The notes below the pieces were generated by a model. It was not told where the DNA came from, searched no databases, and worked only from the letters and a program-made list of their open reading frames with translations. Both the position numbers and the translations under genes were made by a program. This document shows positions 21,262-29,480 of a DNA stretch of 64,000 nucleotides, in pieces. The stretch covers positions 3,968,001-4,032,000 of the forward strand of contig CP114179.1 of assembly GCA_039555135.1 (NCBI GenBank). Direction: 5' to 3'. How positions within the stretch are numbered: the first letter of the stretch is position 1; the number at the start of each line of letters is the position of its first letter. The DNA comes from Phycisphaeraceae bacterium D3-23. Lineage in GTDB: Bacteria > Planctomycetota > Phycisphaerae > Phycisphaerales > Phycisphaeraceae.

Positions 21262-22581
21262 TTATGCGCCCGGCGTCGCCGCCGCGAGGCCCGCGAGGCG
21301 GCCGCTGCACCAGGCCCATTGGAAGTTGTACCCGCCGATGCGGCCGTCGACGTCGAGCACCTCGCCGCAGAGGTAGAGCCCGTCGCAGCGTTTGCTCGCC
21401 ATCGTCGCGGTCGTGACTTCGTCCATCGGCACGCCCCCGGCCGTGACCTCGGCGAACTTGAACCCGCGGTCGCCGACTACCGGCAGCGGCAGGGCGGTCA
21501 GCGCGTGGCACAGCGCCCGCCGGTCGTCCCGACTAAGTCGAGCCAGCGGGAGGTCGAGTTCGATACCCAAGTACTTGTCGAGAATCGCCTGCGCGAAACG
21601 CTCGGGGAAACGCAGCCGAAGCTGGGTCTGGATGGCCCGGGTCGGGTGCTGTTTGGCGGCGTCGAGCCAGACCTGTTCGAGCTGTTCGAAGGTGAGGTCG
21701 GGGCAGAAGCTCACGGTGAGCTTGGACTTGCCGCTGACCGCTTTCCCGGGGCGGAGGTGCCGGCTCATGTCCATCGCTGCGGGGCCCGAGAGCCCGAAGT
21801 GCGTGAGCAGCATCGCGCCTTGCTGCTTGTGCAGCGCTTTGCCGGTGCTGCCCGAGAGGGTGAGTTCGGCGTCGAGGGCGATGCCCGAGAGGGACATGAG
21901 GAAGTGGCCGTCTTGCAAAAGGAGCGGGACGAGCGCGGGCCAGGTCTCGGTGACGGTGTGGCCCAGGCGTTCGATGATTTCGTAGGCCGCGCCGTCGCTG
22001 CCCGAGGCGGGGAGGGCCTCGCCGCCGGTGGCGAGGACGACGCGGTCGGCGGTGTACGGGCCGCGCGAGGTCTGGATCATGAAGTGCCTGGTGGCACAGG
22101 CATCCTGCCTGTGGTTGGGGCCTTCCACAGGCTGGAAGCCTGTGCCACTGGCCACCTGGATGTTGGTGACGCGGTGTTCGGTGAACACTTCGACGCCGGC
22201 GTTGCTCATCGCGCGTTGCAACGCGTCGAGTACGGTGCGGGCCTTGTCGGTGACGGGGAAGAGCTTGCCGGTCTCCTCGCGTTTGAGCTCGACACCGAGC
22301 GCCGCGAAAAAAGCGGTCGTCTCCTTGACGCTGAAGGACTTGAGGATTTTCTTGACCGTGTTGCGCGATGCGCCGCCGAAGTAGTCGACAGGGTTGACGA
22401 TGTCGTGCGTGACGTTGCAGCGCCCGCCCCCGGCGATGAGGATCTTTGCGCCGAGTTTTTTGGCCCCGTCGAATACGGCGACGCGCGTGCCGTCGGGTGC
22501 ATTGCGGCCCGCGAAGATCGCCGCCATCATCCCGGCCGCGCCGCCGCCGATGATCGCGATGTGGGTGTGGTTGGCGGCCAT
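21262..22581 (-). CDS. HI0933-family flavoprotein (NAD(P)/FAD-dependent oxidoreductase)
   Basis: The protein belongs to the HI0933/YhiN family of FAD-binding proteins of uncertain reaction. The N-terminus has HIAIIGGGAAGMMAAIFAG (residues about 6-24), then GGGRCNVTHDI, a family signature, and the C-terminus has GGVPMDEVTTATM and GLYLCGEVLDVDGRIGGYNF. ATG 22581 is chosen; GTG 22605 would add 8 residues. A palindromic module in frame (22092-22147) codes TGFQPVEGPNHRQDACAT between conserved blocks and adds about 20 residues, yet the frame stays open. Length 439. Confidence 0.88.
   Translation of the reverse strand: MAANHTHIAIIGGGAAGMMAAIFAGRNAPDGTRVAVFDGAKKLGAKILIAGGGRCNVTHDIVNPVDYFGGASRNTVKKILKSFSVKETTAFFAALGVELKREETGKLFPVTDKARTVLDALQRAMSNAGVEVFTEHRVTNIQVASGTGFQPVEGPNHRQDACATRHFMIQTSRGPYTADRVVLATGGEALPASGSDGAAYEIIERLGHTVTETWPALVPLLLQDGHFLMSLSGIALDAELTLSGSTGKALHKQQGAMLLTHFGLSGPAAMDMSRHLRPGKAVSGKSKLTVSFCPDLTFEQLEQVWLDAAKQHPTRAIQTQLRLRFPERFAQAILDKYLGIELDLPLARLSRDDRRALCHALTALPLPVVGDRGFKFAEVTAGGVPMDEVTTATMASKRCDGLYLCGEVLDVDGRIGGYNFQWAWCSGRLAGLAAATPGA
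22092..22147 (-). repeat. In-frame TGFQPV/RQDAC palindromic module in the HI0933-type gene
   Basis: TGGCACAGGC and GCCTGTGCCA form the outer arms; each half is itself a hairpin (ACAGGC-5 bases-GCCTGT). Read on the coding strand it gives GTGFQPVEG...RQDACAT. A homologous module in the same orientation to coding lies in korA at 29031-29099. Confidence 0.85.
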
Positions 22582-22604
22582 GGCATTAGGCTGGGGTGTG
22601 GCCA

Positions 22605-23027
22605 CTAGGCCCGCGAAAGTGTAAACACTTCCCCAAGCGTGAGGTGTTCATGCCAATCTGAGGCGAGGTCTTTGGAGTAACGATCTTCGATTGCAAGCAG
22701 TAGTCTCTCAAGCTCCAGGTCATCTACGCGCAAACCAAAAAATGATCTACCCACGGCACGGTAGAGGTCCATGACCTTCGTATCTGGCGTGAAACGGAGA
22801 TAATAAGTGGGGGGAGGCGCGAAAGCGGATTGGATGGCTCGAAGAAACCACCGGATTTCTTCTTTACTTGCTATGGGGAAAGCCCGCCGCCACTCGCGTC
22901 CCACACAGCGTGGAGATGCGAGCCGGCTGAGTTGCCGTGCCGAAAACCACCAACCCAACAATTCGTTCGCGAGTATGCAGATGGCCACGCAGATCAGAGC
23001 AGCGATGGTATAGGTCGGGAGTGGCAT
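22605..23027 (-). CDS. Hypothetical protein with N-terminal membrane helix
   Basis: I do not recognise a family. The 140 residues start with a hydrophobic helix (YTIAALICVAICILANELLG, residues 6-25) followed by a charged, probably cytoplasmic, domain with EEIRWFLRAIQSAF and DLELERLLLAIEDRYSK. Base composition is visibly lower in G+C than in neighbours and third positions are not G/C-biased, which suggests transfer or weak selection. It lies 15 bases after the rpsA start region and its stop touches the next gene. Confidence 0.6.
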   Translation of the reverse strand: MPLPTYTIAALICVAICILANELLGWWFSARQLSRLASPRCVGREWRRAFPIASKEEIRWFLRAIQSAFAPPPTYYLRFTPDTKVMDLYRAVGRSFFGLRVDDLELERLLLAIEDRYSKDLASDWHEHLTLGEVFTLSRA

Positions 23028-27416: not shown

Positions 27417-29480
27417 ATGCCTGCCCCCGAGACGACACTGACACCCGCCCCCGACGCGCTGACCTCCGCCGTCGTCCGCTTCGCCGGCGACTCGGGCGAC
27501 GGCATGCAGCTCGCGGGCACCCAGTTCACCGACACCTCCGCGCTCGTCGGCAACGACGTCGCAACCCTGCCCGACTACCCGGCCGAGATCCGCGCGCCCG
27601 CCGGCACCGTGGCCGGTGTGTCGGGGTTCCAGATCAACTTCGCGGCCCAGGCGATCTTCACGCCCGGCGACCAGGTCAACGCGCTCGTCGCCATGAACCC
27701 CGCCGCGTTCAAGGCCCACATCACCGACGTCGAGCCCGGCGGGATCGTCATCGTCAACGACAGCGAGTTCTCCAAGACCAACCTCAAGAAGGCCGGGTAC
27801 CCCGTGCCCGAGGGCAGCAAGGTCCCGTACAACCCGCTCGAAGACGAGCAGCTCATCCAGAAGTACAAGCTGCTGCGCATCCCGATCACGAAGCTGAACC
27901 AGGAGGCGCTCAAGGACAGCGGGCTGTCACCGAAAGACATCAATCGCTGCAAGAATATGTACGCGCTCGGGCTGGTGTACTGGCTCTACGAGCGGCCGCT
28001 CGATACGACGATCCGCCACATGACCGAGGTCTTTGCCGAGAAGAAGGGCAAGCCCGAGGTCGCAGATGCCAACATCGCGGCGCTCAAGGCCGGCTACTTC
28101 ATGGGCGAGACGGCCGAGCTGTTCCCGGGCCGCTACCGCGTCGCGCCCGCGCCGATCAGGCCCGGCACGTACCGCAAGGTCACGGGCAACGAGGCGCTGG
28201 CGATGGGGCTCGTTGCTGCGGCCGAGCTCGCGAAGAAGAAGCTGCACTACTGCACCTACCCGATCACCCCGGCCAGCGACATCCTGCACTACCTCGCGCC
28301 GCAGAAGCACTTCGGCGTCCGCACGTTCCAGGCCGAGGACGAGATCGCCGCGGTCTGCGCCGCGATCGGCGTCGCGTTCGCGGGCCAGCTCGGTGTCACC
28401 GGCACGTCGGGCCCGGGGCTCGCGCTCAAGGGCGAAGCGATCGGGCTCGCCGTGATGACCGAGCTGCCGCTGGTGATTGTGGATGTCCAGCGCGGTGGCC
28501 CATCGACAGGTCTACCGACCAAGACCGAGCAGTCCGACCTGTGGCAGGCGATGCTCGGCCGCAACGGCGACTGCCCGGCCGTGGTCCTCGCGCCCCAGTC
28601 CCCGGGCGACTGCTTTGGCGCCGCGATCGAGGCCTGCCGCATCGCGTTGACCCGTATGGTCCCCGTGCTGCTGCTCACCGACGGCTACATCGCCAACGGC
28701 TCCGAGCCCTGGCGCATCCCGCAGGCCGACGGGCTTGAGCCGATCGAGGTGAAGCATGCCCCAACGAGCCGTGACCGTCAGGGAGCGGGGCCTAGCGCGA
28801 ATGGTGATGGCCAAGCCAACACCTTTGAGCCCTACACCCGCGATGAAAACCTGACCCGCCCCTGGGCCGTGCCCGGCAGCCCCGGCACCGAGCACCGCCT
28901 GGGCGGGCTCGAAAAACAGAACAACACCGGCAACGTCAGCTACGACCCCGAGAACCACCAGCTCATGACCCGTATCCGCGCCGAGAAAGTCGCGCGCGTG
29001 GTCAACATGGTGCCCGACCTCGAAGTGCATGGTGGCACAGGCTTCCAGCCTGTGGATGGTGCTGGGAAAACCGATGACAGGCAGGATGCCTGTCCCACCG
29101 GCGACCTGCTTGTCCTTGGCTGGGGTGGTCCCTACGGCTCGATCCGCACCGCCGTTGACAACGCCCGCGCGGCCGGCAAAAGTGTCAGCGCCGCGCAGCT
29201 CCGTTACCTCAACCCGATGCCCGCGAACCTCGGCGAGGTGCTCAAGCGCTTCGACAAGGTGCTCATCCCCGAGCTCAACAACGGCCAGCTCCGCCTGCTC
29301 ATCCGCGGCAAGTTCCTCGTCGACGCGCGCGGGCTCAACCGCATCCAGGGCAAGCCCTTCCGCATCGAAGAGATCGAGCAGGCCATCGACCTGATGCTCT
29401 CGGGCGCGTGGGGCGACGCCGAGGCGCTCTACCCGCAGGACGGCAGGGTCGATCCGGACGCCCAGGCGTTGGGGGTGTAG
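27417..29480 (+). CDS. korA: 2-oxoacid:ferredoxin oxidoreductase, fused gamma/alpha subunit (KorA type)
   Basis: With KorB it oxidises a 2-oxoacid, probably 2-oxoglutarate, to its CoA ester using ferredoxin. The N-terminal 200 residues form the gamma domain (VVRFAGDSGDGMQLAG at residues 18-33), followed by the alpha domain (GNEALAMGLVAAAELA, YPITPASDILHYLA, TSGPGLALKGEAIGLAV). Two palindromic modules sit in frame: 28758-28791 (codes SRDRQGAGP) and 29031-29099 (codes TGFQPVDG...RQDACPT), placed between conserved blocks. ATG 27417 is chosen; a longer frame exists. korB lies 660 bases downstream, separated by two small genes. Confidence 0.92.
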   Translation: MPAPETTLTPAPDALTSAVVRFAGDSGDGMQLAGTQFTDTSALVGNDVATLPDYPAEIRAPAGTVAGVSGFQINFAAQAIFTPGDQVNALVAMNPAAFKAHITDVEPGGIVIVNDSEFSKTNLKKAGYPVPEGSKVPYNPLEDEQLIQKYKLLRIPITKLNQEALKDSGLSPKDINRCKNMYALGLVYWLYERPLDTTIRHMTEVFAEKKGKPEVADANIAALKAGYFMGETAELFPGRYRVAPAPIRPGTYRKVTGNEALAMGLVAAAELAKKKLHYCTYPITPASDILHYLAPQKHFGVRTFQAEDEIAAVCAAIGVAFAGQLGVTGTSGPGLALKGEAIGLAVMTELPLVIVDVQRGGPSTGLPTKTEQSDLWQAMLGRNGDCPAVVLAPQSPGDCFGAAIEACRIALTRMVPVLLLTDGYIANGSEPWRIPQADGLEPIEVKHAPTSRDRQGAGPSANGDGQANTFEPYTRDENLTRPWAVPGSPGTEHRLGGLEKQNNTGNVSYDPENHQLMTRIRAEKVARVVNMVPDLEVHGGTGFQPVDGAGKTDDRQDACPTGDLLVLGWGGPYGSIRTAVDNARAAGKSVSAAQLRYLNPMPANLGEVLKRFDKVLIPELNNGQLRLLIRGKFLVDARGLNRIQGKPFRIEEIEQAIDLMLSGAWGDAEALYPQDGRVDPDAQALGV
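28758..28791 (+). repeat. In-frame GCCCC...GGGGC insert in korA
   Basis: GCCCC and GGGGC bracket 24 bases coding TSRDRQGA within a stretch (about residues 449-468) that appears extra relative to the KorA pattern (IEVKHA then FEPYTRDE). The boundaries of the insert are uncertain. Confidence 0.45.
29031..29099 (+). repeat. In-frame TGFQPV/RQDAC palindromic module in korA
   Basis: GGTGGCACAGGC and GCCTGTCCCACC form the outer arms (11 of 12 pairs); inner hairpins are ACAGGC-ttcca-GCCTGT and ACAGGC-aggat-GCCTGT. It codes GGTGFQPVDG...RQDACPT between PDLEVH and GDLLVLGWGG. Confidence 0.85.

Follow-up and report, generated by a model that had tools for sequence, protein, structure and literature searches.

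The persistence of REP-associated transposases (RAYTs) and the spread of REPs still await a full explanation. Among the closest described systems, the REPs of O. terrae GTAG-20 have a GTGG foot, form head-to-head dimers and are associated with RAYTs, and intragenic REP copies that code for 20-30 residues are presented, in the part of the study that deals with them, as a feature of the GTAG superfamily; the passage on CGTC repeats reports these without an association with transposases (PMC3733652). Feet of the form GT[AG]G are also named in a survey whose sections on class 3 TnpA-Y1 describe planctomycete proteins with HUH and a Y----Q motif that accompany many-copy repeats, and from which a few unexpectedly long proteins were discarded as fusions or annotation errors (PMC6006769). 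In the account given of the Marinomonas system, the foot guides cleavage, and a GTGG foot keeps CA cleavage and adds CC cleavage (PMC8266576).

The locus analyzed here lies in a window of 64,000 nucleotides from Phycisphaeraceae bacterium D3-23, to which coordinates refer unless marked as genome positions. The gene korA (27417-29480, plus strand) encodes the alpha subunit of a 2-oxoacid:acceptor oxidoreductase that passes TIGR03710 (610.5 bits, cut-off 482.75) and matches Pfam POR_N and POR, with PFOR_II slightly below its cut-off. There is no second copy of korA in the genome, the sole further match being a short stretch (genome 3990021-3990176) at the site of a sister repeat. At 29031-29099, korA contains a 69-bp module that encodes the peptide GGTGFQPVDGAGKTDDRQDACPT and is a head-to-head (inverted) dimer of REPs with the GTGG feet outside: the first unit (29031-29054, plus strand, GGTGG-CACAGGC-TTCCA-GCCTGTG, with the core CACAGGC and a 5-nt loop) is read GGTGFQPV; a 21-nt spacer (29055-29075, plus strand), not common to the other dimers compared, follows; and the second, inverted unit (29076-29099, minus strand, GACAGGC-AGGAT-GCCTGTC-CCACC, with the core GACAGGC) is read DRQDACPT on the korA strand. 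The original prediction of an in-frame palindromic element at this place is borne out, given that the reading frame is open across the module and that the single strand folds into two strong hairpins and a small spacer hairpin, with an outer GGTGG/CCACC stem closing the structure (-20.9 kcal/mol, z -4.1, none of 200 shuffles equally stable). With up to 3 mismatches, the inner palindromes have 3 and 5 matches in the window against 0.09 and 0.00 expected, the search patterns being derived from the korA site itself and the matches being that site and a second one at 22095-22144. Fold stability and the excess of copies over expectation rule out a chance palindrome.

Compared with its orthologs, the window KorA has 23 residues in place of a loop of 4-5 residues, so that the stretch from PDLEV to LLVLG comprises 31 residues as opposed to 12-13 (18 in one row) in 79 loci from other genomes, out of 80 fetched (L051 was missed by the motif filter and L150 does not cover the site), and 12-13 in a second set of 23 other rows that span the site and share two organisms with the first. 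The alignment proposed as a check thus came out as anticipated: none of the other KorA rows has the peptide (0 of 79 and 0 of 23), and these rows include three genomes of the same genus that show G-D-A-D, G-D-E-D and G-D-P-D-G at the insert point, while a fourth genome of the genus (G004) yielded no KorA match. Its absence from these rows, same-genus genomes included, indicates that the insert is recent and rules it out as an old KorA feature. That about 20 residues were added inside a conserved domain holds as regards the insertion and needs correction in the details, the net gain being 18-19 residues and the module being located just before the weak PFOR_II match. Further upstream, a repeat pattern search shows a unit of a second repeat family (GCCGTGACCGTCAGGGAGCGG, 28768-28788, plus strand) in frame in korA, where it is read SRDRQGA, with NRDRDGA at the equivalent place of KorA in L046. 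This family has 70 matches in the genome when up to 3 mismatches are allowed (control 3), and 6 of its 29 elements are intragenic by a strict count, without the copy in valS, in fetched regions that cover about 12% of the genome and were picked around repeats.

The genome search bore out the expectation of further copies. A degenerate REP pattern with at most one mismatch finds 100 units of the korA type in the single contig of 4.62 Mb (control 1), which are grouped into 65 elements that include 34 inverted dimers. The stems covary with their partners (CACAGGC..GCCTGTG, GACAGGC..GCCTGTC, GGCGGGC..GCCCGCC), the unit of 24 bp (8 codons) falls within the 20-40 bp of REP palindromes, and the tetranucleotide foot is GTGG, that of the GTAG/GTGG superfamily; 22 of 26 units carry a G at position -1, an indication that the mobile unit starts with GGTGG. 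The sister dimer (22091-22148, minus strand, 58 bp foot to foot), identified by the palindrome search and by relatives, is read SGTGFQPV...HRQDACAT in frame within a 461-aa open frame for an HI0933-like flavoprotein (21265-22647, minus strand; PF03486, 248 bits). Exact dimers of the ACAGGC pattern occur in only 3 of 298 genomes of the class, namely this one, G002 and G284. A different subfamily, GGCGGGC, contributes 26 dimers of 92-98 bp (e.g., genome 118052-118143) that are rarely in genes and, where printed, mostly have additional hairpins in a conserved arrangement in their interior.

The ACAGGC elements depart from the mostly extragenic location of REPs. According to a home-made codon model, the calls of which are backed by Pfam and relatives only at the korA site and in nine other genes, 8 of 17 are intragenic, compared to 2 of 32 GGCGGGC elements, one of the two being doubtful (p 1.6e-3), and to none of the 26 elements built from 25-bp units, counted in the same fetched regions as the second family (p 1.7e-4). 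When the two units in valS are counted once, these values become 3.6e-3 and 4.2e-4, respectively, and under other cuts of the classes the comparison with GGCGGGC (2 of 32) stands at 8 of 20 (p 0.0043) or 7 of 19 (p 0.009). Moreover, a single codon phase is common to all 15 units in the 11 intragenic elements that were kept, on either strand. These 11 come from a stricter list of 24 intragenic hairpins, were required to belong to the 100 units as well and to lie wholly in a gene, and leave aside 12 chance hairpins in several phases outside the REP-unit list and one element (2581784) with a GGCGGGC unit in another phase, which is not inside the gene over its full length and still counts among the 2 of 32. 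Under a looser criterion without a score limit, 12 of 15 elements inside genes share the common phase, and the other three (1764534, 2600114 and 3578070) each score weakly as coding sequence on one flank or both. Stop codons do not force this phase, the 24-bp GTGG unit being free of stops in all six frames; with the usual GTAG foot, there would be one stop. The claim that the element is built to be tolerated in coding sequence is accordingly upheld as far as the stop-free unit and the lack of 25-bp units in genes of the fetched regions go, and the korA insert could be regarded as the minor, passive component of a Y1-transposase system adapted to, or filtered for, life in reading frames.

Beyond korA, nine genes that host such REPs are recognized by Pfam: those for a DEAD-box helicase, ScpA, ValRS, aconitase, a nucleotidyltransferase, an AAA protein, glutamate synthase, a radical-SAM HemN-like protein and the flavoprotein. 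Where same-genus genomes allow a comparison, which is the case for one to three of them per gene, the REP peptides of these hosts are absent or different, with no clean alignment gap at glutamate synthase or, against G002, at the AAA protein; at three host loci, the corresponding loop of relatives is occupied by other REP-like peptides.

Reading the hosts of intragenic REPs brought to light a RAYT that is encoded in frame within the 1314-aa open frame of ValRS of the same genome (L193:1124-5065, genome 1597786-1601727, minus strand), a frame that also holds a dimer of the second family (TSRDREGADP...GPLPDGRGS). At 20.5 bits, this RAYT is below the Pfam Y1_Tnp cut-off of 23, and the search of the genome with that model gave three other genes. 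A single frame matches both TIGR00422 (804.9, cut-off 612.1) and NF047646 (80.7, cut-off 80; 85.6 for the RAYT alone); the codon score supports the same frame throughout the insert, which is placed between the positions that align with 363 and 376 of ValRS 1gax; the stretch from the upstream REP to the beginning of the conserved domain contains no in-frame ATG, and no second valS was found in the genome. Translation of the valS RAYT as a domain inserted into ValRS would be possible. Inverted ACAGGC REPs at genome 1599806 and 1600309 flank the RAYT, which lies between 1599806 and 1600331. No other RAYT found in this genome is adjoined by REPs of the korA subfamily. Among the other Y1 genes, the RAYT in L126 is flanked by 25-bp units, L127 is near GGCGGGC units, and L128 and L320 have none of the tested units. 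As the sole Y1 gene found here with inverted REPs of the korA subfamily adjoining, the valS RAYT appears to be their likeliest mobilizer.

Several other matches deserve mention in their own right. The RAYT in L126 (genome 1312894-1313430) is free-standing and flanked by inverted GTGG-GGCAGACATTCCTGTCTGCC palindromes, which makes a classical REPtron, and L128 (genome 2956902-2957162) is a further Y1 transposase with no tested repeats nearby. Seven RAYT matches in frames of 294-495 aa (L320-L326) resemble non-coding or shadow extensions in sequence and were excluded as in-frame inserts.

In the scenario that we consider highly probable, the korA module is a non-autonomous mobile dimer of GTGG REPs that was inserted by an HUH/Y1 single-strand transposase (RAYT), most likely the one in valS, into a disordered loop of KorA and has stayed there because it is frame-neutral, with stop-free units of 24 bp and a total of 69 bp.

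The ValRS site is not peculiar to this genome. In 24 of the 25 genomes of the order (G006 lacks one ValRS flank), an in-frame insert of 525-672 nt is present at one point of ValRS in five, namely this genome, G022, G008, G026 and G027, whereas in the remaining 19 the aligned flanks are 21-126 nt apart, and all gap lengths are multiples of three; a sixth insert, in G134, emerged from a RAYT search of 392 genomes of the phylum, 16 of which matched at E 1e-25. Among the 51 genomes of the family of the window organism, this one gave the sole match of the RAYT model in a frame of more than 500 aa. The loop is occupied by RAYTs in three genomes (this one, G022 and G134; NF047646 scores of 87.4 and 86.7 for the latter two) and by a second Y1 type with HUH and a Y----Q motif in the other three (Pfam Y1_Tnp 28.2 in G008, 24.9 in G026 and 29.7 in G027). 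The three RAYTs are bounded by GTGG REPs with differing stems in the same phase. The second type is bounded by inverted second-family repeats, CGAGCC.., in G027 and in G008, where stem changes are compensated; agreement of these repeats with the CnGA foot of class 3 is uncertain, and the flanks in G026 differ. Judging by the sequences, the site holds two transposase types within one genus, that of G022 and G026, whose N-terminal ValRS parts are identical at 267 of 307 positions while the inserts align at only 39 of 127. The HxGH, KMSKS, HUH and tyrosine motifs are intact in all six ValRS-transposase frames; those read from L298, L306 and L311 are cut by the locus ends, the open frames themselves having 1283, 1216 and 1271 aa. 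A RAYT is also in frame in LeuRS of G140 (L329:1-3672; LeuRS 877.2, cut-off 548.4; RAYT by NF047646 83.3, cut-off 80), with a GTAG-footed palindrome on its 3' side; the exact letters KMSKS were not found in this frame. A RAYT within a DUF1156 methylase frame of G396 (L330:1116-2702), where the downstream frame is probably shifted, was not counted.

A broader reading, to which we assign about even chances, holds that two unrelated HUH/Y1 types live as in-frame, unspliced inserts in essential planctomycete genes for aminoacyl-tRNA synthetases and that one ValRS loop has been reoccupied recurrently, the occupants borrowing host expression, being safe from crude deletion and spreading frame-neutral 8-codon REPs to housekeeping genes such as korA. 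The less exciting alternative would be a loop that tolerates inserts and is reused by chance; the intact catalytic motifs speak against decay. In a tree whose rows were selected by likeness to the valS RAYT, the three valS RAYTs form a group with weak support (66/89; 68% of 200 bootstrap trees; an equally low value in 2 of 500 label shuffles), and this grouping would fit one old gain as well as repeated homing.

Returning to the module itself, whether the dimer was moved whole could be questioned. Two REPs might instead have been inserted singly, one to each side of loop residues native to KorA, a history that we regard as the less probable one, albeit worth serious attention: single REPs also occur in genes, and the spacers of six dimers of this genome are unrelated in sequence and 3, 12, 15 or 21 in length, unlike the GGCGGGC dimers with their conserved inner structure. 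Because spacers differ between dimers, these need not move as one unit. However, the foot-to-foot length is 1 modulo 3 in seven of the eight two-unit elements of the ACAGGC class, including some that are not intragenic, the eighth being a tandem pair, which speaks for insertion of the dimer. A selected, functional extension of KorA, in place of a tolerated mobile element, appears very improbable: in-frame retention in a core enzyme and the recurrence of similar peptides in several proteins would be compatible with function, but the insert is lacking in every other KorA row compared, the same peptides are found in unrelated proteins, and the loop is modeled with low confidence. In the AlphaFold2 model (40 sequences, mean pLDDT 72.8), which matches the fold of 6n2n (TM 0.67 by query length, E 5.6e-38), the insert corresponds to residues 539-561, with pLDDT below 50 at 541-559. 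Membership in the palindromic element families of Rickettsia, such as RPE-4 and RPE-6, with which korA REPs share a way of life as in-frame palindromes in core genes, is scarcely credible given that the foot is GTGG rather than CGTC and that the CGTC repeats are reported, in the passage concerned, without the transposase association seen here for a subfamily flanking a RAYT (PMC3733652), so that the element is more than the mere analog of these repeats originally proposed and fits the GTAG/GTGG REP superfamily, with its RAYT.

The mobile REP dimer, inserted by a RAYT, hence remains our preferred account of the korA module, and it has implications beyond this gene. A transposase fused in frame into an essential synthetase, at a site held by different transposase types in two species of one genus, suggests persistence by hiding in an indispensable frame; the valS case predicts fusion proteins, and the common codon phase could provide a measurable target rule. 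Surveys can miss or discard in-frame transposase fusions, and among the matches listed in a search of titles and abstracts of the open-access literature, we found no report of tRNA synthetases or host genes that contain a RAYT or another transposase. Inteins and homing endonucleases are likewise cases of an in-frame nuclease that occupies a constant position in an essential gene; here, however, no splicing family is among the matches listed for the ValRS and LeuRS frames, and the insert seems to be retained in the host protein. Intragenic REPs are already known, and the korA module is a further case of them. With the REPtrons of the GTAG superfamily as presented for O. terrae GTAG-20, the present system shares the foot, the palindrome, the dimers, the association with a RAYT and the intragenic copies, and it differs from that description in that the RAYT itself is in frame in an essential gene and that one subfamily lies preferentially within genes, where it keeps to one codon phase (PMC3733652). 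Likewise, the second Y1 type resembles class 3 TnpA-Y1, as characterized in the relevant sections, in the Y----Q motif, HUH, the planctomycete hosts and the many-copy repeats, the distinction being that three such proteins are here in frame in ValRS (PMC6006769).
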